This document shows positions 5,986-24,849 of a DNA stretch of 26,236 bases, one piece after another (position 1 is the stretch's first letter; each line of letters opens with the position of its first letter). The DNA comes from a virus. The notes below the pieces were generated by a model that worked only from the letters and a program-made list of their open reading frames with translations, searched no databases and was not told the DNA's origin. The stretch lies in IMG/VR virus record IMGVR_UViG_3300021138_000146, positions 1 through 26,236 of that record, one strand, 5' to 3'. The position numbers were made by a program, and so were the translations under genes.

Positions 5986-6783
5986 TTAATCTTTGTTTTT
6001 TTCTAACTTAGCCAATGTATTGGTAAGTGCTTTAATTTGTTCTGCAAGTGATTCGTATACATCATCGTTAGCAGGTCCTATTCCTGGAGGCTTAGCCTTT
6101 TTGTCCTTGAAATCGGGTTCATCTAGAGCTTTTATATCTCGCTCTAAATCTCTGTTAATTTGCTTTACTTTTTGATCGGCATCTTGTCCTGATTTTTTCA
6201 TCATATCAACAACTTCATCCGAACTGATACCGGGACGATATAGCGATTTAGTATCAGGTTCTGGTTCAGGTAGAGAAGTGCGCTCAAGTGTTCCTGCTTT
6301 GTCCCAACTTGATCCTTGATAGTAATGCTGACTTTCATCTTTGGGTGCTGCTACTAATGGCGGAGGGAATTTACCCTTGTTGAACAGCGGAATAAAATTC
6401 TGTGCGCTACCATGCCAATTAATATTTTGTTCATCGTCTGTATACTTTACTTCTACCCCGTCTAGTGGTATTAGTGTAGAAAGATCAGGTTTTTTAGTTT
6501 TGGCGCCGGCCTTAGCTCGGTCAATATTCTTCTGGGGCACCTTAATCCAAATTTGTCCTAAACCACTATCAGCAAAAACAATTATACCATTTTCACCTTC
6601 TTTATGCTGATTAATCAAGCCAAATTTAGATCCCCAACCCTGGGTTCCTTTATAAGTATGATCTCTTCCTCGAACAATATTGACTAAATCGGCCAATGTT
6701 CCATGCATCGGAGAAACGCTATCACCTTCTTCAATATGTGATAGCGTTTCAGCAAGTTTTTTTATTTCTTCAGATATAGACAT
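5986..6783 (-). CDS. late protein of unknown function, 265 aa
   Basis: 265 residues from ATG 6783, which follows the stop of the 925-aa gene by one base (TAAAATG); the frame is open upstream but overlaps that gene. It starts MSISEEIKKLAETLSHIEEG. A folded-looking middle (about residues 25-150, with GIIVFADSGLGQIWIKVPQ) is followed by a proline-rich linker and a long charged helix ending in a coiled-coil-like segment (SLAEQIKALTNTLAKLEKNK). The phrase LYRPGIS is shared with the upstream 925-aa protein (FYRPGIS at 628-633). Its position suggests a virion-associated or co-packaged protein. I do not recognise the family. Confidence 0.65.
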   Translation of the reverse strand: MSISEEIKKLAETLSHIEEGDSVSPMHGTLADLVNIVRGRDHTYKGTQGWGSKFGLINQHKEGENGIIVFADSGLGQIWIKVPQKNIDRAKAGAKTKKPDLSTLIPLDGVEVKYTDDEQNINWHGSAQNFIPLFNKGKFPPPLVAAPKDESQHYYQGSSWDKAGTLERTSLPEPEPDTKSLYRPGISSDEVVDMMKKSGQDADQKVKQINRDLERDIKALDEPDFKDKKAKPPGIGPANDDVYESLAEQIKALTNTLAKLEKNKD

Positions 6784-6784
6784 T

Positions 6785-9562
6785 TTACAATCCCGATAGT
6801 TTTTTGATTCTTTGTAACTCTTCTGGAACGACTTCTTTTGGATCGCCGTACTTATCACGAACTGGGCCCTTACCTGCATCTAAACGTGCTTTTTGATCTT
6901 CAATTCTTCGTTTGTATTCTTCCATTTTCTTTTCGTCATGAGCTTTCTCTGCTTTAGCATATAATTGAACCAATTGTTGAAGTTGTGGATCGTGCTTGTA
7001 TGTTGAATTACTAGCAAAGTAGTTTAATAGCCCTGATGCCCCATAAAGTGCTAAAGCAGCACCAAGCCATTTCTTACCTGTACGTGACATTTCTTCTCGT
7101 AACAATTCTTCGTCAAATTCTCTACTTTCGTTACCAACTAGTTTGCCGCGCAATTTCTTTTCATTCTTGCCTACTTTGTCAGTTGGACCTAATTGTCCTG
7201 CGCGTCTTTGGTTACGGTCTAATCCTTCTTCAAGATCATTGTCATAGTCACGATCATCCATATGCTCAATGTCACCATACTCTGGTGTCATACCTGGATC
7301 TTTGTTTGGATCTCTGGCACATCTCTCGCATTGATTTACGCTTCCGTCATATGCAGTACTACCACATGGTCTTGTAACTTCTTTGTAGCCGTATCCTTTA
7401 GGAACAAATACTGTTATTTTTTTCCCGCAGCCATAAGTCCATCTACTTTCTTCTATCTGGGTGTCTCGGCCATACTGTTGACTAAGTTCATCTATAAAGT
7501 CATCGATGCCCCTGTAATCATGTTCTCTAGCCAGATCATCTAAGGCTTGATAAGACATTTTGTGCTTCTTCATAACTGGCTTTAAACTGTCAGTAGGATC
7601 TAAGTCTGGAAATCCTGCTGCTAATGCACTGACAACTTCTTGCCAAATACCTTCTTTACCTTCTGAAATGCCGGGCCTATAAAAAGATAAAGCCTGCTTG
7701 TATGCTTGTTCGAACTTTTGTTCATCAAATTTACTATCATCAATATGGACAATTTGATTTCTAACTATATTTTTAACACGTTCTTTGCGGCTTGGCTTCA
7801 GGTATTCGTTACTTTTATCAAATAACTCATCAATGATACTCATATACCATTTAACGCTTTCAGGTGAGTAGTCATCTTCATCAAAGAAATCCATATCATC
7901 CATGTTATTCATATTATCTGCCTCATTTACTTCGTTTAATTTATTAGGGAATATCCAAGATGTTTCAGCATCATCTTTTGTCATTCCATATGTTTTAAGA
8001 AATTCTTTAGGTTTCAAACCAAAGTGCTTTTTGCAAAATTCTCTATGTTCGTCATTATCTAAATCGGCTGGATCAAATTCATCGCCGTACAAATCTGTAA
8101 ATCTTTCGCTCATTGCACCTTCTGAAATCTCGGTAGTTTCGTGCAATTCGTTGCTATCACTGACACCTAATAACAATTGCGCTTTTTCTACTAAATCCAT
8201 TAATAATTTTCGTGGCACACCTATCACTTCCAAAGCCGCTAACAATCGTGGATCATCTGTTAGTTTATCTAAAATCATCATAGACTGAGCAACTTTCCCT
8301 TCATCTTCCTGACGCATTGGATTAGTTTTAAATTGGTCTAGATAATCTTTTATATCCTGCAATGCATTTTTAGAAAGCATGACGGATCTTAATTCAGGTT
8401 CTTCATTCTCATCTTCTGATTCGGTAACTTTACCGTGCAAACGCTTGTTTATCTTAGATAGAACAAAATCAACCATTTTTCTCAATGAATCAACATCTGC
8501 ATTACTTGATTCGGGAATAGACTTTAAATCAGAGGCTTCGTCAACTAGTGTATTTGCCCATTCTTCTAATTCTTTTACTTCTGTGACTTCTTTGATATTC
8601 TTGCTCAACTTTCTAAGAATAGGCATTGCACTTTCAATGCGAGGATCTAGTGTTTCTTTTACAAATAGTTCATTGATGTTAGTCTCGTCGCCCTCTGTTT
8701 CCATAAGGGTAGGAGTCCAACTTTCAAAGTAAGTATTGTATCCACGTTGGCCAATCATCTTGCTTAGAGTTTCGCGCAATGATCTATAGTGATTGACACC
8801 TTCATTGACTAGTCTTTGTGCAGATTCATTGAATTGTTTACCCTTAGTAGCGCGAACAAATCCAGCCATCTTAGTGTATTCTTCTACTAACGCAGTAATG
8901 TGCTTGCCGCGCTCATCGTAAGGTGTGCCACCTTCTGCTACATGTCTGGCATATACTTTAGCAATACCAGGGCGGCGAGTTGGAAGTGCAAATCTTTCAC
9001 CATTGATGTTTTCAACAAAAATTCTTTCAACGTTATAGTAACGCTTTTCGCCTTCTTGTATTTGACGAGTATGTTGAATGACAATTTTTACTTCAGGAAC
9101 TGAATCATTGTAACTTGATTTCTTACCCATCGAGTGATATCCTTCACCCAATGCTTCTTTCTTTTTTACTCGTTCACGTTGTGCCATGTCACTTCCTAAG
9201 TGGTCTCTGTTTTTTAATTCAAAACCCAATTGTCTTCGCATAGCCCATCTTTTTAAAACTTTTAAGAGGCTGGGCCAACTGTCGCTGAATTGTGTGCCTG
9301 AAGTATTCTCAGTACCGCTATCTGCAATATCGTCATCGTAGTAAAGAATTAAGTTAGATGCGTTGTCAATAGTAGCCCAAACAGGACCGTAATCTTTGTC
9401 ATTACCGTTGTTTGTACCTTTCTTAAAGTCAAACTTAAAAACATCAGCATCTTGCGGTACGGGGATGTTTTGACCTTTTGAGTCGATAGGAGTAGGGTCA
9501 TAGCCTCTAGTTTTCAAGAGGTCATAAAGTCCAGCGTTGAAGGATTCTTGATTGATTGCCAT
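6785..9562 (-). CDS. large modular late protein, 925 aa, probably virion-associated
   Basis: A 925-residue protein directly downstream of the terminase gene. Residues 1-~470 are mostly alpha/beta then helical and match no family I can name. From ~475 the protein becomes a chain of short, charged modules separated by [ILV]-x-E sequences: ISE481-G, LNE544-V, VNE547-A, ISE634-G, IEE705-S, LEE779-G, LRE823-E. One module (706-779) has four cysteines, C712, C733, C745 and C748, in a zinc-ribbon-like spacing. The last module has a hydrophobic stretch (WLGAALALYGASGLLNYF at 832-849) followed by a basic coiled coil. The ATG has no Shine-Dalgarno and is preceded 5 bases away by TAAATA. The sites resemble T4 prohead-protease cuts, so packaging and processing in the head is plausible but unproven. 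Confidence 0.75.
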   Translation of the reverse strand: MAINQESFNAGLYDLLKTRGYDPTPIDSKGQNIPVPQDADVFKFDFKKGTNNGNDKDYGPVWATIDNASNLILYYDDDIADSGTENTSGTQFSDSWPSLLKVLKRWAMRRQLGFELKNRDHLGSDMAQRERVKKKEALGEGYHSMGKKSSYNDSVPEVKIVIQHTRQIQEGEKRYYNVERIFVENINGERFALPTRRPGIAKVYARHVAEGGTPYDERGKHITALVEEYTKMAGFVRATKGKQFNESAQRLVNEGVNHYRSLRETLSKMIGQRGYNTYFESWTPTLMETEGDETNINELFVKETLDPRIESAMPILRKLSKNIKEVTEVKELEEWANTLVDEASDLKSIPESSNADVDSLRKMVDFVLSKINKRLHGKVTESEDENEEPELRSVMLSKNALQDIKDYLDQFKTNPMRQEDEGKVAQSMMILDKLTDDPRLLAALEVIGVPRKLLMDLVEKAQLLLGVSDSNELHETTEISEGAMSERFTDLYGDEFDPADLDNDEHREFCKKHFGLKPKEFLKTYGMTKDDAETSWIFPNKLNEVNEADNMNNMDDMDFFDEDDYSPESVKWYMSIIDELFDKSNEYLKPSRKERVKNIVRNQIVHIDDSKFDEQKFEQAYKQALSFYRPGISEGKEGIWQEVVSALAAGFPDLDPTDSLKPVMKKHKMSYQALDDLAREHDYRGIDDFIDELSQQYGRDTQIEESRWTYGCGKKITVFVPKGYGYKEVTRPCGSTAYDGSVNQCERCARDPNKDPGMTPEYGDIEHMDDRDYDNDLEEGLDRNQRRAGQLGPTDKVGKNEKKLRGKLVGNESREFDEELLREEMSRTGKKWLGAALALYGASGLLNYFASNSTYKHDPQLQQLVQLYAKAEKAHDEKKMEEYKRRIEDQKARLDAGKGPVRDKYGDPKEVVPEELQRIKKLSGL

Positions 9563-9583: not shown

Positions 9584-12403
9584 TTAACCTAGCACGGCAA
9601 AGAAGGGCATGGGTGCCACGAACTCGTCGTGGTCTCGCATTTGAGTTTCCAAATCTACGTGATAATCGCCCAACTGCTGTAAAATTCTAACGACTAGGAG
9701 TGTAGCCATAATAAGATCGTCTGTGTCGCCTACTTTAGCGGCATAACTGCCACCTGAAGCCACAAAAGTCTTTAATTCAGATATCAGACTGCGACTATAA
9801 ACTTTTAACTTCTTGCTTTCTAGCAGAGTTTTAAACTTAGCGCATGCGGCTAATTTGTTCTTGTGTGTGGTGTTAAAACCCCTGCGCTTTTTGCCCGGTT
9901 CGCTAATGAATATCCCGGGAATATTGGCTTCACCGTACTCGTTCAGAGAAACTATCGCAGCTTCACCTATAGAGTTGTTTTCTAGTGAATAATATAGATT
10001 GTTTGGTTCGTTAGTCTTTTCTACAATATATCTGTTTATTTCTGCTAGCAACTTAACTTGACTGGGAATGTTAGTCTTGTTATGCTTCCATTCACCAATT
10101 TGCGTCGTAGTGTTTGCTTCAAAAATCTCTATAGCAGCAGGATCTCCACCTGTACCTAAACTTGGGTCTAGCCCTACTACATATAAATTTCCTTTGGTTG
10201 GCTCTTTATACCATCTAACTTGACCCATTCTATTAGAAGGTTCTGTTCCCTCTAGCATAATTAGAGTGTTTGGATTGATCAGTGTTTCATCGGCGATGAT
10301 AAATTCGCATTCCATTTCACGGTTGAAGCGATCTTGTCCCAATTGTGATCTAATTTCTTCAGCCCATTTTTCGTCTCTGCCGGGCTGTTCAGACCAGTGT
10401 GAACGGTATGCTTTGAAGCCGTTTACGCCAACTTCTGTTACGTTACCATATTCGTCTTCTGTTTTATTAGCACCCTTCCAAATAAGAGCAAATTGATCTT
10501 CATCGCTATTTGGTGTAGAAGTAATGATTGCTTTACCACCAGTTGATAGTGTAGGTGTAATAGAAGTCCAGAATTGTTCAGCAATAGTAGGTCTTACGAA
10601 TGCGAACTCGTCTAAGTAAAGAAGCGTAATAGACATACCACGACCTGTGTTTTCGGTAGTTGTTGCCGAAACAATACGACTACCGTTTTCAAAGTCTAAA
10701 CTGCCTTTGTTATAAGTTGTCACCCCTGCTTTAATGTGGTTAGGGCAGTTTTCATAAGCATATCTAATACGCTGCATGATTTCCTGAGCGCCAGTGTACT
10801 TGTGCGCTGCTATCAGAATTGTAGAGTCCGGGTTGAACATAGCGTACCACAACAAGTATCCGGCAGCACTTGTAGAATTATGACTTAAAATACCATTTGA
10901 ATAAAATCTGTGATTTTCATCTCTAATAGTTAAATCGAACATATTTTCAATATTATTTGTTTCTCTAATATGTTTAATTTTTTCTATTCCGTTAACAGTA
11001 TGAATATGCGAACCAATAGTTAAGTCTTTTGCAAAAACTTGATTCATTGAGCCATCAAACAAAATATGAGTGTCGGCGCATTGCAAAATTAATCCTGTTA
11101 CAGTTTTAATTTCCCAAACATTGTACGGAATAGTACGATGGAGGTGTGTTATTGGTTTCCATCCTGTGTCAGTGGTTATTTCATAATCGGTTATTTCGTA
11201 TGACTCTATAAATTTTCTTTCTACTGATTCAGAAAGTTCAGACATTCTTGAAGCACTTGTTGAGGATCTTTCTTGTATCTTTCCTCGGCAACTCTTAGTA
11301 ACTGGTATCCACTTTGAATAATCTGCTGTTCTCTTTCTAGTTCCCGTTGCGGGTTCGCCATATGTTGCCCATGCCAATAAATCCCGTCGAATTCTATAAT
11401 TTTTCTCGTTGCTATATTGATGAAATCCGGTAGAACAGTCTTGCCTGAATCCAATAAAAGCCGATATTCCTTGTTTTGGTAGTCTAACATATCCGACCGT
11501 TCCAAGGTCGCAAAATATACTTGATCTGACGCATAATGTTCCATTATTAAATGGAATAGTTTTTGTGAGACATTTGAATAGTTTTGTTTTTTGAAATTCT
11601 TTGACCACTTTTGCTGCCGTTCTTGCCATCTTAACAACCCATTGGCTTTCCCGTATTTTTCTAAGCATTTCTTCAAAGAAAAAGTAGTTTGCCGATCTGT
11701 CAGCATACGAATCGCTTGTTCTTCGTCTTGATTCGTAACTTTCATCCAATATGCAAGAGTAGTAGTATGTGATTGATTTTCTTTTCGGGACTGTTCGGCT
11801 TTGATTTGAGTTCGCTCCGATATATCCCCGTGAATAAATTTTGGAGAAAACGGAGAAAGTTTCCCTCCATGTTGGTATGCAGGATTTCCAGAACCCGATA
11901 CCCTTTTTGATTGTGCTTCCAGTAACTGCTGGCACCGAGTTGGTGCATTCGGATAGACTTCTTTGTATTTGGTCACTGTCATATTGTGTTTTCTGAATAG
12001 ATGAGAGTGCAATTCCTTCATCTCTGTTGAGCAAATTAGACAAGTTACTAAATCGTTCATAAAATTTTCCTATAGTTATTTCTTCAACCTTACCGGTGTG
12101 AATATTTTTTATTTTAACTGTAGTATTTATTCCAAAACACTTACCAGACTGTCTGGGCATGAGCGATATACTATATCTGTAATTGTGATATGTGTGTATT
12201 AAACGTTTTTGATAATCCCATGGATGATAGTTCATACCACCCTTAGTAGGATGTTGTATGAAGAAAAAATTGTCCATGAAATAAAGATAACCGGTATCAG
12301 GGTCGCAGCACTTTACAAACTCATCTAGTTGTTGAGGTGTTTCAAAGTGTGTTTTTTCGTAGGGGCTTTTGATTAGTGCCCCTTGCCCTGACTTGTTACT
12401 CAT
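9584..12403 (-). CDS. terL: terminase large subunit with an inserted intein
   Basis: An open frame of 939 residues encoding the DNA-packaging motor (T4 gp17 type) interrupted by an intein. The N-extein is residues 1-88, ending in the Walker A sequence LMPRQSGK. The intein is C89 to N509. The C-extein starts STSAAG at 510. Spliced, the protein would be 518 residues, normal for a TerL. Walker B is LLYLDE at 594-599 and the nuclease domain begins with VVGLDPSLGTGGD around 742-754, with a second acidic pair in DTDDLIMATL near the C-terminus. The intein sits exactly between the catalytic lysine and the following serine, so unspliced protein must be inactive. The ATG has no Shine-Dalgarno; TAAATA lies 5 bases upstream. 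Confidence 0.92.
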   Translation of the reverse strand: MSNKSGQGALIKSPYEKTHFETPQQLDEFVKCCDPDTGYLYFMDNFFFIQHPTKGGMNYHPWDYQKRLIHTYHNYRYSISLMPRQSGKCFGINTTVKIKNIHTGKVEEITIGKFYERFSNLSNLLNRDEGIALSSIQKTQYDSDQIQRSLSECTNSVPAVTGSTIKKGIGFWKSCIPTWRETFSVFSKIYSRGYIGANSNQSRTVPKRKSITYYYSCILDESYESRRRTSDSYADRSANYFFFEEMLRKIRESQWVVKMARTAAKVVKEFQKTKLFKCLTKTIPFNNGTLCVRSSIFCDLGTVGYVRLPKQGISAFIGFRQDCSTGFHQYSNEKNYRIRRDLLAWATYGEPATGTRKRTADYSKWIPVTKSCRGKIQERSSTSASRMSELSESVERKFIESYEITDYEITTDTGWKPITHLHRTIPYNVWEIKTVTGLILQCADTHILFDGSMNQVFAKDLTIGSHIHTVNGIEKIKHIRETNNIENMFDLTIRDENHRFYSNGILSHNSTSAAGYLLWYAMFNPDSTILIAAHKYTGAQEIMQRIRYAYENCPNHIKAGVTTYNKGSLDFENGSRIVSATTTENTGRGMSITLLYLDEFAFVRPTIAEQFWTSITPTLSTGGKAIITSTPNSDEDQFALIWKGANKTEDEYGNVTEVGVNGFKAYRSHWSEQPGRDEKWAEEIRSQLGQDRFNREMECEFIIADETLINPNTLIMLEGTEPSNRMGQVRWYKEPTKGNLYVVGLDPSLGTGGDPAAIEIFEANTTTQIGEWKHNKTNIPSQVKLLAEINRYIVEKTNEPNNLYYSLENNSIGEAAIVSLNEYGEANIPGIFISEPGKKRRGFNTTHKNKLAACAKFKTLLESKKLKVYSRSLISELKTFVASGGSYAAKVGDTDDLIMATLLVVRILQQLGDYHVDLETQMRDHDEFVAPMPFFAVLG
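11221..12060 (-). CDS. homing endonuclease, Vsr/EDxHD-like, nested in the intein out of frame
   Basis: 279 residues, read one base out of phase with the terminase. The N-terminus has a C2H2 finger of the ROS/MucR kind (C7, C10, H20, H25, followed by MTVTKYKEVYP). The middle has SGNPAYQHGGKLSPFSPKF and a LEKYGKANGLLRWQERQ block, both typical of phage homing endonucleases. The C-terminal nuclease has PDF (D212), IIEFDGIYWHG (E223, D225, H230) and QSGYQLLRVAEE, a Vsr/DUF559-type fold like that of endonucleases found in fractured genes with split inteins (the EDxHD group). The ATG has AGGA with a 7-base spacer, so it can be translated on its own. Its stop lies just beyond the ATG at 11245 that could start the C-intein. 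Confidence 0.85.
   Translation of the reverse strand: MNDLVTCLICSTEMKELHSHLFRKHNMTVTKYKEVYPNAPTRCQQLLEAQSKRVSGSGNPAYQHGGKLSPFSPKFIHGDISERTQIKAEQSRKENQSHTTTLAYWMKVTNQDEEQAIRMLTDRQTTFSLKKCLEKYGKANGLLRWQERQQKWSKNFKKQNYSNVSQKLFHLIMEHYASDQVYFATLERSDMLDYQNKEYRLLLDSGKTVLPDFINIATRKIIEFDGIYWHGQHMANPQRELEREQQIIQSGYQLLRVAEERYKKDPQQVLQECLNFLNQ
12124..12129 (-). promoter_or_regulatory. late-type motif inside the intein, upstream of the endonuclease gene
   Basis: GGAATAAATACT occurs 64 bases before the endonuclease ATG, inside intein codons for G-I-N-T. It could drive a separate late transcript of the endonuclease, as the internal late promoter of I-TevI does, but the bases are also constrained by the conserved intein N-block, so it may be chance. 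Confidence 0.25.
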
Positions 12404-13818: not shown

Positions 13819-14202
13819 TTAATAACCTTTGAATCCCTTTATAGGACTTACTTTATGTACACTCTTAATTTCGTGACTGGTTTGACGATTTAGTTTGTTT
13901 ATTCTACCCGCACCAATATAGTCTCTAGCGGATTGAATGATTTCCATGTCCACATCTGTATAACAAGTTAGTAGAGGATCACCCGCCATTGGTCCAACCG
14001 GGGGAGTCGGGAAATGCGGAGCACCAGCCATTGCAATACCAAATCGCCAACCTTTATATGGGCTGCCGGAAGATTTATTATCACTGATATCAGGCATACT
14101 GATTGCACCCGGGCTTGCTGCCATATGCTCTTCTGCAAAATCATCACCATTTGCAGGTGCATCCCCTTTCGTACCTTCGCTGATGAATTCTCTTGCTCTC
14201 AT
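13819..14202 (-). CDS. putative internal head protein, 127 aa
   Basis: 127 residues beginning MRAREFISEG. This resembles the T4 capsid-targeting sequence of internal head proteins (MKTYQEFIAE followed by a cut) in length, in the D/E-F-I-x-E core and in having a small residue after the Glu. The rest is Gly/Pro/Ser-rich to about residue 75, then a short helical part and a basic C-terminus (KSVHKVSPIKGFKGY). If the N-terminal nine residues are removed by a prohead protease, a 118-residue basic-ended protein would remain with the DNA. The ATG has no Shine-Dalgarno; TAAATA is 5 bases upstream. The function after packaging is unknown. Confidence 0.65.
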   Translation of the reverse strand: MRAREFISEGTKGDAPANGDDFAEEHMAASPGAISMPDISDNKSSGSPYKGWRFGIAMAGAPHFPTPPVGPMAGDPLLTCYTDVDMEIIQSARDYIGAGRINKLNRQTSHEIKSVHKVSPIKGFKGY

Positions 14203-20490: not shown

Positions 20491-21591
20491 TTACTTGTCA
20501 CTCTCAACGATGTACTTGCCGTAAGTCTTGTGGAACTGATCAAAGTTCTTGAGTTGGGTCGGCTCAATCGGCAACTGATAAGTCTTGAGTGCGATCTTAG
20601 CACCCATGATCACCAACTCAGTCTCAAAGTTCGCCATGATGTAAGTAAAGAAGTTCGACGCCATGACATGGAACTCCTTCATGTCCACCCGCTTGTTCTG
20701 AACAGCATCACGCAACTCGTAGCACATAGAAACGGTCAGCGAGTACATTGCCGAGATTTCCTTGACTGCAAGATCCTTCACCTTGCCCTTGAGAATATCC
20801 TCGGGGTTGGGCATCTTGCCCGAAAACTGACGATGCTTCATGAACTTGAGAGCAAGACCGTCACCGATAGCACCCGCAATCAGATTGTGCAGAGTATCGG
20901 CATCGGTGTCCTCATCATTGAGCAAGTCACTCACAAAGCACCAAGTACGCGGGGTAGCGAACGCACGATTTGCCGACTTAGCATCGAAGTCGTGCAGGTC
21001 CTGCTTAGCGAACGACAGATAACCAACCACGTCCTTGTGAATGCCCTTAGTGACAGCCCATGCCTGCCAAGCATTGAAGTCAGCCCGCATTTCAAGATGC
21101 AAGAACCGATTAGCAAGCGGCATCGGCATGCGATAAGTAACGCCCTTGTCGGTGTCACGATTACCAGCAGCAACGATCACCACGTTATCGGGCAACTTGT
21201 ACTTGCCAACGCGACGGTTGAGAATCAACTGATAGCCCGCTGCCTGAACAGCAGGGGGAGCCGAATTCATCTCATCCAAGAACAAGACAACAATCGGGTA
21301 CTGAGAAGCCAGTTCCTCAGTCGGGAGATCGACAGGGGCAGCCCAGTCCATCTTGTTGATATCCTTGTTATAGAACGGGATACCACGAATGTCAGTGGGT
21401 TCCATCTGCGCCATACGCAAATCGATCATAAGACCGCCAAGTTCATCAGTAATCTGCTCGACTACCTCAGACTTGCCGATACCCATCGTACCCCAAAGAA
21501 ACACGGGTCGCTTTGCCTTGAACGCCTTCAAAAGAGCCTTACGGGCTTGAACGCTCGTAATGGTGTTGTTATCAGAAATCGCAGTCGCCAT
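20491..21591 (-). CDS. MoxR-type AAA+ ATPase
   Basis: 366 residues. Walker A GTMGIGKS is at 34-41, Walker B VVLFLDEMN at 101-109 and sensor-1 VVIVAAGNRDTD at 137-148, with the MoxR-style insert between (RGIPFYNKDINKMDWAAP). The C-terminal ~150 residues are the helical lid. It probably remodels or activates a protein partner together with the metallopeptidase/VWA protein encoded next. The ATG has a weak AAAGG ten bases upstream and a strong promoter at 21644-21671. Codon use is C/G-rich at third positions. Confidence 0.88.
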   Translation of the reverse strand: MATAISDNNTITSVQARKALLKAFKAKRPVFLWGTMGIGKSEVVEQITDELGGLMIDLRMAQMEPTDIRGIPFYNKDINKMDWAAPVDLPTEELASQYPIVVLFLDEMNSAPPAVQAAGYQLILNRRVGKYKLPDNVVIVAAGNRDTDKGVTYRMPMPLANRFLHLEMRADFNAWQAWAVTKGIHKDVVGYLSFAKQDLHDFDAKSANRAFATPRTWCFVSDLLNDEDTDADTLHNLIAGAIGDGLALKFMKHRQFSGKMPNPEDILKGKVKDLAVKEISAMYSLTVSMCYELRDAVQNKRVDMKEFHVMASNFFTYIMANFETELVIMGAKIALKTYQLPIEPTQLKNFDQFHKTYGKYIVESDK

Positions 21592-21700: not shown

Positions 21701-21973
21701 CTATTGCATTAAAATTTGGATCAAAATAAGTTTGTCCAAATATACCATCGCATCCTGGATTTTCTTGCGCTGGTCTGGGATTTTTCGGGGATTTTTGGTC
21801 TGTCGGGCCTTGACTTCGAGGCTAGCCAATTCACTGATCATACCGGAAATGTTTTCATACAGCGTCCAAAGATCCCGTTTGAAACGGGTACATTCAGATT
21901 TGTACATTCGGTCGCCCATTGCGCCCAAAACTTTTCGGGCTTCTATCGCAGTCTCAAACTCAAACTCGTCCAT
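21701..21973 (-). CDS. small helical protein, 90 aa
   Basis: 90 residues, almost entirely helical, starting acidic (MDEFEFETAIEARKVLGAMG) with a basic middle (KARQTKNPRKIPDQRKK). The ATG overlaps the stop of the 958-aa gene by one base (TAATG), so it is coupled to it. I do not recognise it; it could be a partner or packaging adaptor of the large protein, by position only. Confidence 0.6.
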   Translation of the reverse strand: MDEFEFETAIEARKVLGAMGDRMYKSECTRFKRDLWTLYENISGMISELASLEVKARQTKNPRKIPDQRKKIQDAMVYLDKLILIQILMQ

Positions 21974-24849
21974 TATACTTTCCCGTCTGGTCTCGCTGTT
22001 GGGGGAATTCCTGCTCTACTGATTTTGTTTCCAAATCGTTTAGCATTCTTACGCATTGTATCAGGATGGACATCCAATGTCAAGGCGGTTTTGTATCTGG
22101 GGTCGTTTCTTTGGGCATAACTGGGAATGTAGCCTGAGGCTTCTTCAAGTGATATGTTGACTTTCTTTATCCTATTAGGTTCAATAATAGTGTCAATTAT
22201 CAATTCATATCCTGCACCTTTGGAAATGTGATCTTCCAATCCAGAGGTATCTATCTTTAGCATCGTGAGTGGTTCATCTTCGAATTCATCACCTAACCAA
22301 TTCATCACTGCATCTTCTGCTGCCAGCCTACTAGGAAATACATAGATTCCAGATTTTTCTCTCATTATTTTATTTGATCTGTCTCCTATGCCGGGTTTTA
22401 AACCTTCTTTGGCGATCGATTTTATATTTTTAGTGGGAGTTACATGATATACAATTTTTGGAATATCTTCCGAGGCTTCTGTCACGTTCTGTGTATTACC
22501 AGACACACTAAACAGTGGTCCAGGTACTACTACACGACTCTTTTCAGCATACAAACCTTTGTTCCAGTTATCGATAATTTCAGAAGTTAAGTGTCTGCTT
22601 CTGTAACCGCTCATAGGGAACAAGTGAACTTCTACAGGATCGTCACCTTCATGCTTTAAGATAGTTTTCATGCGGTGTCTGCCTTCATGACCACCAATTC
22701 TAGCCGCCATGCTATAATCACCTTTCTCCCAGTCTTCGGGCATCAGAACATAAAGAAAAGGTGCACCAATCGCACCACCAGACTTTATATGATTTGTCAT
22801 TTCTTCATCAGGTTCAGTATGGGTAGGTGCTGCTAATTTCAAGAATATACTTGGTCGCATTTTAACTCGCAACCCAAAATAGTCTACATCTTGATTATGA
22901 GGTACTGCTCCCCATCCTTTAACATTGTCTATAGTAACTTCATCTAACGGCTCTGATGAATCATCTAACGGGTCTGATAAGTCTACATACTTGATAGGTA
23001 CATTTCTAACTGCGGCTGCTAGCGCACGATGTTGTCCATCGATGATTTTATTATCATCGATTACAATTACTTCATCTGATAAATCAGGATCACTAACATA
23101 GTGAGTAAAGGTATCCATCTGTTCATCGTCTAAACGGTCTACTAAATCATCAATATGTTCAACACGGTATTGACCAAGCAAATGTATCTTTACTTTATGC
23201 TTAGGCATAGTTTTGATGACTAATGGCTTTTTTAAATCTCTAGTAGAAACATAATTCCAAAATATTTCATCACGTTCAGGCAACTTATTACCGTACATTT
23301 TTTGTAAGGTAGTTCGTTCTTCTGTTATAGTATTAGATGAGGTTAATTTTCTAAGTGCATCAGAAGTCAAAGGTACTGCATCTATTATATTCTCTGGCTT
23401 AACTCTGCCATGTCTCTTTAACGCATTGCCTTTATAAGCAACCATTGGCGCAGTATCTTTTTCCCAATCGTTATCATCAGTGAACTTAACGATTGATATT
23501 TTGCCGGTGCCCAGTTTCTTGTGTAATTCCCAATCCATTTTACCCGCCCAACTTTGAGCGTCGGGAAGATTGTCAAACGCAAATATTTCACCACCGCCGT
23601 AACGTTCCCCTGTGCCTGCTTGCACCCAGTTACTAGGCTGTAATGGTAAAATACCTTTCTTCTTTATTCGAGGAACATTATCTGTAGTCGTAACATGATA
23701 GAACACTTTTTCTTTAGGAGCAGTCTCTTCTGAAATATCAGTTTTATATCCAACGTGTTTTAAAAAGTGTTGGATATCTGCTTCACTGTAACCTAGCAAT
23801 CTGCCTAATTGAACATGATATGATGCCGGAGCCTCATCGGGACTTCCTAAAGTAGCAAGCATCAGTCGTTTTATACTTTTAGCCACATTAGGGTCTTTAC
23901 TAACTATAATCATTGGAGCAGTGCTAGCCCAAATACTACCTTTTCGTGGAGGTATTTTGCTCATGTCTATAGTTTCTACTGTCCAATTATTTTTCTGTAT
24001 GGCGTTCTGCCATACTTTTTCATTTAAATCGGTATAATCTATGATAGCAGCAGGCTTATCCCCATGTAACATTAATTTTAATTCTTTTTTTTCATGCGGG
24101 CCTATTGTTTCTTTGATAGTTTCAGGATTCTGATACATGTTTTCAAAACTTAGTTTTGCACTATGCAACTTGTCTCGCAAGTCATATAACTTTTGCAAGT
24201 ATCCTTGATTCTTTACCATCTTGTATGCTAAGTTTTCAGGCCCGAATTCACCAAAGTTAGCCAAACCTGCTTTACGATATTGCTTTATCTTTTTTAGTAC
24301 CTTGCTGACTCTTTTAAGGTCTCGTTCTTTTAGTGCAAGTTCACAAAAACTTTTTAGTTGTTGATACTTGGCTCTAGTATTGTTTTGATCAAAGTTTGCC
24401 CTGCGCTTTAGTGGGAATTTTATCCAGTGATCATTCATTATACTGTATTCGCCCAATGACACATGCGGATCACTTGCCGGCTGAACATACAATTCTACTG
24501 GAATGTCTTTTATTGTTATGTCGTGCTTATCATTATAGACTGTCTTTTTAGCATTGAATAGTTCTTGATAAACCTCATCATTGTTAAATTGATCCATGTC
24601 TACGATAACGTGCAAGTCGATATCACTATGCGGGGTGTAAGAATATGCAGCATTAGACCCTGACATGGTAACATCTTTGACTTTAAATGGACTGACTCCT
24701 AAATTGTTCAAAAAGTCTTCTGCTATTGCTAACAGTTTTTTTCTAATTACAGGGTTTAAGTGCTGCCCGTGAAAAAGAGATGGATTTAGCTGGTCGTGAA
24801 ACTTGACCGCATCTGACATTTTGAAGGAATGGAGTTCTTTGAGATTCAT
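21973..24849 (-). CDS. multi-domain putative effector polyprotein (NTase, ART-like, ParB-like modules)
   Basis: 958 residues. Modules: (1) 1-~245 nucleotidyltransferase, with GSN at 64-66, the acid pair in SDIDLHVIVD (75-84) and E119; (2) ~250-370 unknown; (3) ~378-505 ADP-ribosyltransferase-like, FYHVT at 383-387 and GEIFAFDN; (4) ~511-632 ParB/sulfiredoxin-like, IIDGQHRALAAA at 602-613; (5) ~640-785 a second DGxHR-like module, GGHEGRHRMK at 719-728; (6) ~796-896 a second ART-like module, VYHVTP at 800-805 and SGIYVFPS; (7) 904-958 a basic end (EASGYIPSYAQRNDPRYKTA...). Between successive modules stand IKE247, ISE374, ITE510, LDE637, VTE791 and LEE903. The start has no Shine-Dalgarno and TAAATA 4 bases upstream. 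Packaged, proteolysed effectors (compare T4 Alt) are inferred. Confidence 0.75.
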   Translation of the reverse strand: MNLKELHSFKMSDAVKFHDQLNPSLFHGQHLNPVIRKKLLAIAEDFLNNLGVSPFKVKDVTMSGSNAAYSYTPHSDIDLHVIVDMDQFNNDEVYQELFNAKKTVYNDKHDITIKDIPVELYVQPASDPHVSLGEYSIMNDHWIKFPLKRRANFDQNNTRAKYQQLKSFCELALKERDLKRVSKVLKKIKQYRKAGLANFGEFGPENLAYKMVKNQGYLQKLYDLRDKLHSAKLSFENMYQNPETIKETIGPHEKKELKLMLHGDKPAAIIDYTDLNEKVWQNAIQKNNWTVETIDMSKIPPRKGSIWASTAPMIIVSKDPNVAKSIKRLMLATLGSPDEAPASYHVQLGRLLGYSEADIQHFLKHVGYKTDISEETAPKEKVFYHVTTTDNVPRIKKKGILPLQPSNWVQAGTGERYGGGEIFAFDNLPDAQSWAGKMDWELHKKLGTGKISIVKFTDDNDWEKDTAPMVAYKGNALKRHGRVKPENIIDAVPLTSDALRKLTSSNTITEERTTLQKMYGNKLPERDEIFWNYVSTRDLKKPLVIKTMPKHKVKIHLLGQYRVEHIDDLVDRLDDEQMDTFTHYVSDPDLSDEVIVIDDNKIIDGQHRALAAAVRNVPIKYVDLSDPLDDSSEPLDEVTIDNVKGWGAVPHNQDVDYFGLRVKMRPSIFLKLAAPTHTEPDEEMTNHIKSGGAIGAPFLYVLMPEDWEKGDYSMAARIGGHEGRHRMKTILKHEGDDPVEVHLFPMSGYRSRHLTSEIIDNWNKGLYAEKSRVVVPGPLFSVSGNTQNVTEASEDIPKIVYHVTPTKNIKSIAKEGLKPGIGDRSNKIMREKSGIYVFPSRLAAEDAVMNWLGDEFEDEPLTMLKIDTSGLEDHISKGAGYELIIDTIIEPNRIKKVNISLEEASGYIPSYAQRNDPRYKTALTLDVHPDTMRKNAKRFGNKISRAGIPPTARPDGKV

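Follow-up and report, generated by a model that had tools for sequence, protein, structure and literature searches.

A candidate capsid-packaged polyprotein beside the terminase gene of giant T4-related phages, with cassettes that may be exchanged at protease-site-like junctions

In phage T4, a short N-terminal peptide targets the internal proteins and gp21 cuts after L/I-x-E; Alt undergoes a further cut, at its C-terminus (PMC9026906). The genes analyzed here share several traits with the IPI–IPIII/Alt system, including membership of the same large phage group, a gp21-type protease in relatives, the L/I-x-E motif, and N-terminal targeting peptides on other genes, but the T4 proteins are encoded by separate single genes and cut at their ends, whereas here many modules are present per chain, the sites are internal, and modules are swapped between genes. 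Polyvalent proteins are likewise long, multi-domain, probably packaged, and thought to be processed into functional units, though PMC5512222 presents them as arrays of enzyme domains whose cutting is attributed to zincin-like peptidases within the proteins themselves, while the present modules are short, mostly without a Pfam or PHROG match, and bear candidate sites for a protease acting in trans. The HExxH motif was found in 0 of 55 relatives; it occurs in about 36% of polyvalent proteins (PMC5512222), a frequency that makes it common in that group and not strictly required. None of 10 tails scanned by Pfam and 10 by PHROG held the two or more known effector domains by which polyvalent proteins are recognized. 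The head proteins of SPN3US (protease gp245) and phiKZ resemble the present case in a short motif cut after Glu and in several cuts within propeptides, but those propeptides are fixed, without swappable cassettes, and the sole C-terminal propeptide reported in the cited part of PMC10052503 is the protease's own. The arrangement was not found described in the open-access literature, a scope that lies mostly outside subscription papers, and the string 'QGVAEG' had no match there.

The window, a 26,236-nucleotide stretch of viral DNA (IMG/VR record IMGVR_UViG_3300021138_000146), encodes a 925-aa protein that we read as a capsid-packaged polyprotein, cut by the prohead protease and with cassettes swapped via short homology, at a probability of roughly 0.6. 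The reading draws on constant cores with variable tails, [ILVM]xE motifs at module borders, a genome-wide ranking, a gp21-type protease in relatives, a database record for PA5oct, a scaffold-like tag, and junction DNA with its break points. Counting against it are a window and a 72-kb contig without a protease gene, a site count in the tail at the level of chance, a linker test with P = 0.12, the lack of the QGVAE DNA repeat from the window, and a frame bias of the junction 16-mer that is not special. The gene product would be a polyprotein of a giant T4-related phage whose N-terminal core is a virion protein, and the 925-aa protein is probably cut-up cargo inside the phage head. A scaffold-like C-terminal tag probably recruits it to the prohead core, a gp21-type prohead protease would cut after the Glu of [ILVM]-x-E during head maturation, and the freed small peptides, including a possibly zinc-binding four-cysteine module, would stay in the head and be delivered with the DNA. 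In relatives, cassettes may be swapped by recombination at the commonest junction, a repeat of ~18 bp encoding QGVAE/ (a slash marks the candidate cut), probably via the phage UvsX/UvsY; because the repeat encodes the cut motif, recombination there would always yield an in-frame, cuttable fusion. Short stretches of homology suffice for recombination in T4-type phages, and the tail-fibre genes of T-even phages exchange segments at conserved motifs.

The 925-aa open reading frame was confirmed at 6785–9562 on the minus strand and, as originally predicted, beside the terminase (Table 1). It lies downstream of an intein-bearing terL across a gap of 21 bases; next come a small gene, an SSB-like gene (named by matching gene order in Pectobacterium phage CBB and Vibrio phage 2.275.O), UvsX, and UvsY, all within the window. 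The order terL–core gene–SSB–RecA-like gene is kept in the same two cultured phages. A 279-aa open reading frame in another frame inside terL (11221–12060) resembles a homing-endonuclease gene, and an intein-free terL (about 513–519 aa) occurs in several relatives.

Table 1. Positions of the 925-aa gene's parts and of other features in the window.
Feature	Positions	Strand	Remark
Downstream gene	5986..6783	(-)	Likely start MSISEEIKKLAE..., one base past the 925-aa stop
C-terminal tag, ELQRIKKLSGL + stop	6785..6820	(-)	Tag type found in most relatives
Module H, residues 824–914, hydrophobic helix and coiled coil, ends VPE/	6821..7093	(-)	Predicted helices
Module G, residues 780–823 (GLDRNQRRAGQLGPT...)	7094..7225	(-)	Same gene in many relatives, 43–70% identity
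Module F, four-cysteine, residues 706–779, ends LEE/G	7226..7447	(-)	Predicted beta hairpin; copies in L112/L113, L114
Module E, residues 635–705, helical, ends IEE/S	7448..7660	(-)	Homologue in L004/L005
Module D, residues 545–634, ends ISE/G	7661..7930	(-)	Site in linker 625–635
Module C, residues 482–544, ends LNE/	7931..8119	(-)	Site in low-confidence linker 533–564
Stretch B, residues 352–481, ends ISE/G	8120..8509	(-)	Site 481 in low-confidence linker 468–493
Core, residues 1–351, homology mainly 1–341	8510..9562	(-)	Virion structural protein by phrog_13484
terL with intein, upstream neighbour	9584..12403	(-)	Terminase_6N E 7e-14, Intein_splicing E 5e-4
127-aa protein, N-terminus MRAREFISE/G	13819..14202	(-)	Same N-terminal type in G002, G003, G004 genes
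GH19 lysozyme, capsid-targeting-like N-terminus MRSSDFIYE/S	14216..15025	(-)	PF00182 E 1e-8
958-aa polyprotein candidate, conserved NTase-like N-terminus, last module after LEE/ASGYIPS	21973..24849	(-)	Family alignment

The core had been regarded as unknown, a description that holds only in part, as residues 128–279 match phrog_13484 ('virion structural protein', head and packaging; E 1.5e-8). In a tblastn search of 50,697 cultured-phage records, 55 matched, giant phages for the most part, and no match extended beyond residues 1–373; the record for the PA5oct orthologue (EST35_0206) carries the note ESI-MS/MS, i.e. it is annotated as detected by mass spectrometry. Judged by this homology, residues 1–341 are a conserved virion protein. 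Cultured orthologues measure only 429, 445, and 496 aa, so most of the tail of the window protein is without a counterpart there. Inspection of the N-terminus of the 925-aa protein revealed no capsid-targeting motif, and PADLOC returned no match to the protein. A Pfam match to T7SS_signal (residues 820–903; 23.5 bits against a cut-off of 27) was judged to be a coiled-coil match and set aside.

A scan of IMG/VR retained 80 loci from 95 relatives which, with the window's own, gave 81 loci, 64 of them with a complete open reading frame and 55 distinct. Among the 55 distinct complete relatives, the core was common to all while total length ranged from 404 to 1061 aa. The relative L113 has a core 82% identical to that of the window, with tail similarity limited to residues 700–822 (modules F and G); in L004 (core 75% identical) it was limited to residues 631–822, with gaps. 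Even between pairs with cores >90% identical, tail length still differed about two-fold (10–90% range). The comparison of homologues was thus clearly positive for module gain and loss, and uniform conservation with the sites within one continuous fold, the pattern contrary to the original prediction, was not what was found. At the level of sequence, cassettes are shown to have been gained, lost, and moved among several carrier genes. Some tails, those of L071 and L080, include extended hydrophobic modules that resemble glycine zippers (for L080, Gly-zipper_Omp at E 1e-4) and are possibly membrane-active.

Modules of the window tail differ in how widely they are distributed. Stretch B has no relative of its own, its single match at E ≤ 0.01 being a weak one to the core of L036 (21%, E 0.006), and searches for sequence relatives of modules C and D found none. 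The homologue of module E in L004/L005 begins after a VAE/G site (42% identity, E 8e-16), and most of this module is confidently folded in the predicted structure (pLDDT blocks 78–91 over residues 641–690). The predicted cysteines of module F (C712, C733, C745, and C748) are present, with a fifth at residue 510. Copies of module F, each preceded by LDE/S, are found in the same gene in L112/L113 and in a different, 394-aa gene in L114, with the four cysteines invariant in the three aligned copies; further search added no copies to these. As a zinc ribbon, module F had no convincing solved relative in a PDB sequence search (best E 0.03). In relatives, module G is usually preceded by [ILV]xE. The terminal hydrophobic, coiled-coil module was borne out as a helical region (~815–895) with a hydrophobic first helix, the predicted helices around module H spanning 815–851, 859–873, and 877–895.

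The proposed link to the 958-aa protein also holds. Members of its family (518 aa, in a cut member, to 1385 aa) align over the N-terminal 241 residues and, in uncut members, over the last module, with a differing middle, and all eight, including that of the window, join the last module through [ILV]xE/ASGYIPS. Six tripeptides occur at the junctions of this family (VAE, LNE, ISE, INE, VNE, and LEE), and the 958-aa protein has weak NTase and KptA-like matches. Modules were also found to move between genes. A module of ~120 aa, bounded on either side by [ILV]xE in the copies displayed, occurs in tails of the 925-aa family and in two other genes (contigs G003 and G004) with unrelated flanks, and one module of the 925-aa family tails occurs in a carrier that bears a cytidylyltransferase-like domain. 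Neighbouring genes within 6 kb contained no convincing modules, which were found elsewhere in larger contigs. Further polyprotein-like carriers are L094 (about 183–193 kb in G003), L284, and L285 (503, 714, and 1004 aa). Of 50,697 cultured phage records, 365, nearly all of cyanophages, contain modules of the 1004-aa carrier, mostly as hypothetical proteins, which makes the polyprotein reading testable in culture. Synechococcus phage Bellamy and Prochlorococcus phage P-TIM68 are two cultured examples with such modules. The architecture on which the original prediction based a general strategy of packaging small peptides as polyproteins recurs in many more genes of relatives, while protease cutting, peptide packaging, and delivery are steps that we infer. 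One polyprotein segment occurs twice in the 525-kb contig G004, inside it (175624–179142) and at its end (523177–524565), and this contig may be redundant or misassembled.

Genes of three large related contigs were ranked by the excess of [ILVM]xE[GSADEN] over their own shuffles. A gp22-like scaffold ranked first in all three (G002, G003, and G004), the homologue of the 925-aa gene ranked 2nd of 351 (G003), 4th of 220 (G002), and 9th of 507 (G004), and two more carrier families fell within the top four in each. In a 72-kb contig with an identical 925-aa gene, that gene ranked 3rd of 46. A gp21-type protease (Peptidase_S77, PF03420; E 2e-27 or better) was present in three of nine related contigs, the largest (again G002, G003, and G004), as was a gp23-type capsid gene. 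A search of the remaining six contigs, all of smaller size and possibly fragmentary, found neither, and the protease gene is absent from the window and from the 72-kb contig, itself a fragment. The N-terminus of the G003 capsid protein contains LLE, ILE, and LAE sites. The C-terminal ending of the 925-aa protein (ELQRIKKLSGL) resembles those of the scaffold (NVIDIKRLAGL) and of one other carrier (KKLAGLK), a pattern that matched nine of 1363 genes in four contigs (three scaffolds, three members of one carrier family, the 925-aa protein, and two others). An [ILVM]xE was located within the last 26 residues of 40 of 49 tails, compared to 46% of random 26-mers. Other genes, including those of the window's lysozyme and 127-aa protein, begin with MR..[DE]F[IVL].E, which we take to resemble the T4 capsid-targeting peptide. 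Small proteins with MRA.EF[IV].E (G003 102342–103105, the window's 13819–14202, and their G002 and G004 equivalents) have an FKGY-type C-terminal ending in common.

The tail could instead be scaffold-like filler, cut by the prohead protease into fragments that are expelled with no role after assembly, like most fragments of T4 gp22/gp67. We consider this unlikely, as the module sequences are specific (the four cysteines are invariant across two different genes), some modules are predicted to fold, and one is common to the carrier with a cytidylyltransferase-like domain, although tail length does vary widely at a constant core and the C-terminal tag is scaffold-like. In T4, most core fragments exit the head (PMC9026906), which agrees with filler and counts against packaged cargo.

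Whether motifs mark module borders was assessed in a motif-blind manner, with the ends of local alignments among 49 nonredundant tails (of 56) taken as borders. Of 176 ends, 69 had an [ILVM]xE at a distance of ≤3 residues, with 29.4 expected; of 201 starts, 112 were followed by one within 9 residues, with 42.9 expected. Neither value was reached in any of 1000 circular shifts. The control motifs [ILVM]xD, [ILVM]xK, [ILVM]x[QN], and [FYW]xE showed no enrichment at ends and slight enrichment at most at starts ([ILVM]xD, 48 vs 37; 27 of 1000 shifts); other xxE motifs were mildly enriched at starts, with [KRDE]xE also enriched at ends (42 vs 29.7). The test was repeated with 87 nonredundant carriers from other families, most of them picked by the DNA repeat, and gave 122 of 358 ends (52.7 expected) and 182 of 362 starts (72 expected); with GVAE-type sites left out, 66 ends (41.2 expected) and 124 starts (56.7 expected) remained. 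On these alignments, module borders coincide with [ILVM]-x-E. An [LI]-x-E motif at functional borders, a mark of gp21-matured proteins, is likewise present, as a motif only.

The commonest border peptide among the relatives, QGVAE, is conserved at the level of DNA as CAAGGTGTGGCGGAAG, while the codons of LDE, VDE, and VEE site peptides are varied. The window has no match to this repeat at up to 3 mismatches. Among 47 of the 49 tails (the two without plus-strand locus DNA were left out), the 16 QGVAE used GTG for Val in 13 cases (13% background) and GCG for Ala in 11 (5% background). Across G002–G004, Val-Ala was encoded by the rarely used GTGGCG in 15 of 19 GVAE, compared to 10 of the 1876 Val-Ala pairs elsewhere (Fisher P about 1e-27), the 19 being partly dependent in that one G004 stretch occurs twice and one GVAE is in a non-carrier gene. 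All 26 near-matches of CAAGGTGTGGCGGAAG (≤2 mismatches) in these three contigs were in frame and in carrier genes, with none in G001, and conservation of the DNA dropped sharply at about 18–20 bp (the inner 16 being fixed by the search). This codon bias and DNA-conserved junction are new and unexpected. When DNA similarity was compared among 142 carrier genes, 63 of 516 starts of similarity coincided with the junction (null mean, 11.7; maximum, 23), as did 59 of 523 ends (null, 14.6; maximum, 28). Among the matches listed, the exact junction 16-mer was in frame in 110 of 112 and a synonymous control 16-mer in 76 of 80; the frame bias alone therefore proves nothing, and the in-frame fraction was dropped as strong evidence. 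At the loci listed, at least two copies were present at 24 of 80 for the junction 16-mer and at 0 of 80 for the control. This difference in copy number and the codon bias continue to set the junction 16-mer apart. A junction 19-mer matched bacterial and archaeal genome contigs seven times (about two expected by simple arithmetic), three of the seven in frame.

A QGVAE junction conserved as DNA, with DNA break points at it, would also be expected if the junctions were recombination sites and flexible linkers within one uncut chain, as in other mosaic virion proteins. Uncut modules appear quite improbable to us, however, given that non-GVAE borders also carry [ILVM]xE in varied codons, that the 958-aa family holds [ILV]xE/A through six tripeptides, and that the motif conforms to the L/I-x-E rule of gp21 (PMC9026906), with near-miss motifs not comparably enriched. 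Within the polyprotein reading, we tentatively suggest, with rather less confidence than in the reading as a whole, that the ~18-bp repeat may serve as both recombination junction and cut-site code, such that, through in-frame swaps of cassettes among packaged polyprotein genes and phages, each virion would deliver a set of peptides open to change.

The single protein provides less. Seven [ILV]xE sites had been counted after residue ~475, where ten are present, not above the 6.8 expected by composition shuffle (P = 0.12), and residues 1–474 hold 19. The stricter [ILVM]xE[GSA] was enriched in the tail (5 vs 1.5, P = 0.01) and likewise in residues 1–474 (7 vs 1.9). With the raw count at chance and the strict motif enriched in both parts, the sequence of one protein is no proof, which is supplied by the comparison with relatives. 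An AlphaFold2 model (40 sequences; mean pLDDT 68.8) was confident for the core and helical module E and fair for beta module F, with low-confidence stretches between. These stretches, 36% of the tail, contained 10 of 14 tail [ILV]xE (binomial P = 0.008; 15 of 584 circular shifts) compared to 1 of 16 in the core. Other tail Glu residues were placed similarly (22 of 45), the sites not being significantly commoner there (P = 0.12), so the linker placement is suggestive only. Two of the ten tail sites, IDE579 and IDE692, are probably not real sites, since the model assigns both to helices and not to its low-confidence segments (the blocks around IDE692 have pLDDT 68–90). Sites arising by chance in a structural protein that is acidic, in part disordered, and undergoing ordinary divergence would match this tail's site count and a linker placement no better than that of other Glu, but are very improbable and already disfavoured by the border tests in both tail sets, the genome-wide ranking in three contigs, and the modules within non-homologous genes.

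A fold search with the full model gave no PDB match at E ≤ 0.001 and only uncharacterised phage proteins in BFVD, and no function could be deduced from the fold. The second model, of the L029 tail, had a mean pLDDT of 47.6. The Pfam matches to the 10 tails scanned were weak and below cut-off, and PHROG gave none for its 10. A ryanodine-receptor-like module suspected by eye was unsupported (nothing in Pfam; PDB sequence search, E 0.43).

If the polyprotein reading is true, giant T4-related phages of lakes and seas would be equipped with a stock of peptides for injection, produced as polyproteins and open to exchange, with the point of exchange and the point of cutting encoded by one short sequence. 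This would explain many of the 'hypothetical' genes of such phages, provide a rule for splitting these genes into real units before roles such as anti-defence or host take-over are assigned, and represent a natural device for in-frame domain swapping.

Elsewhere in the window (19123–21591), a VWA/metallopeptidase-like protein (DUF2201) is located beside an open reading frame that resembles a MoxR-type AAA ATPase. Genes for ribosomal protein bS21 are present in two of eight related contigs (G003 251015; G004 63744 and 471943), and PMC9723584 describes this protein from some freshwater phages.
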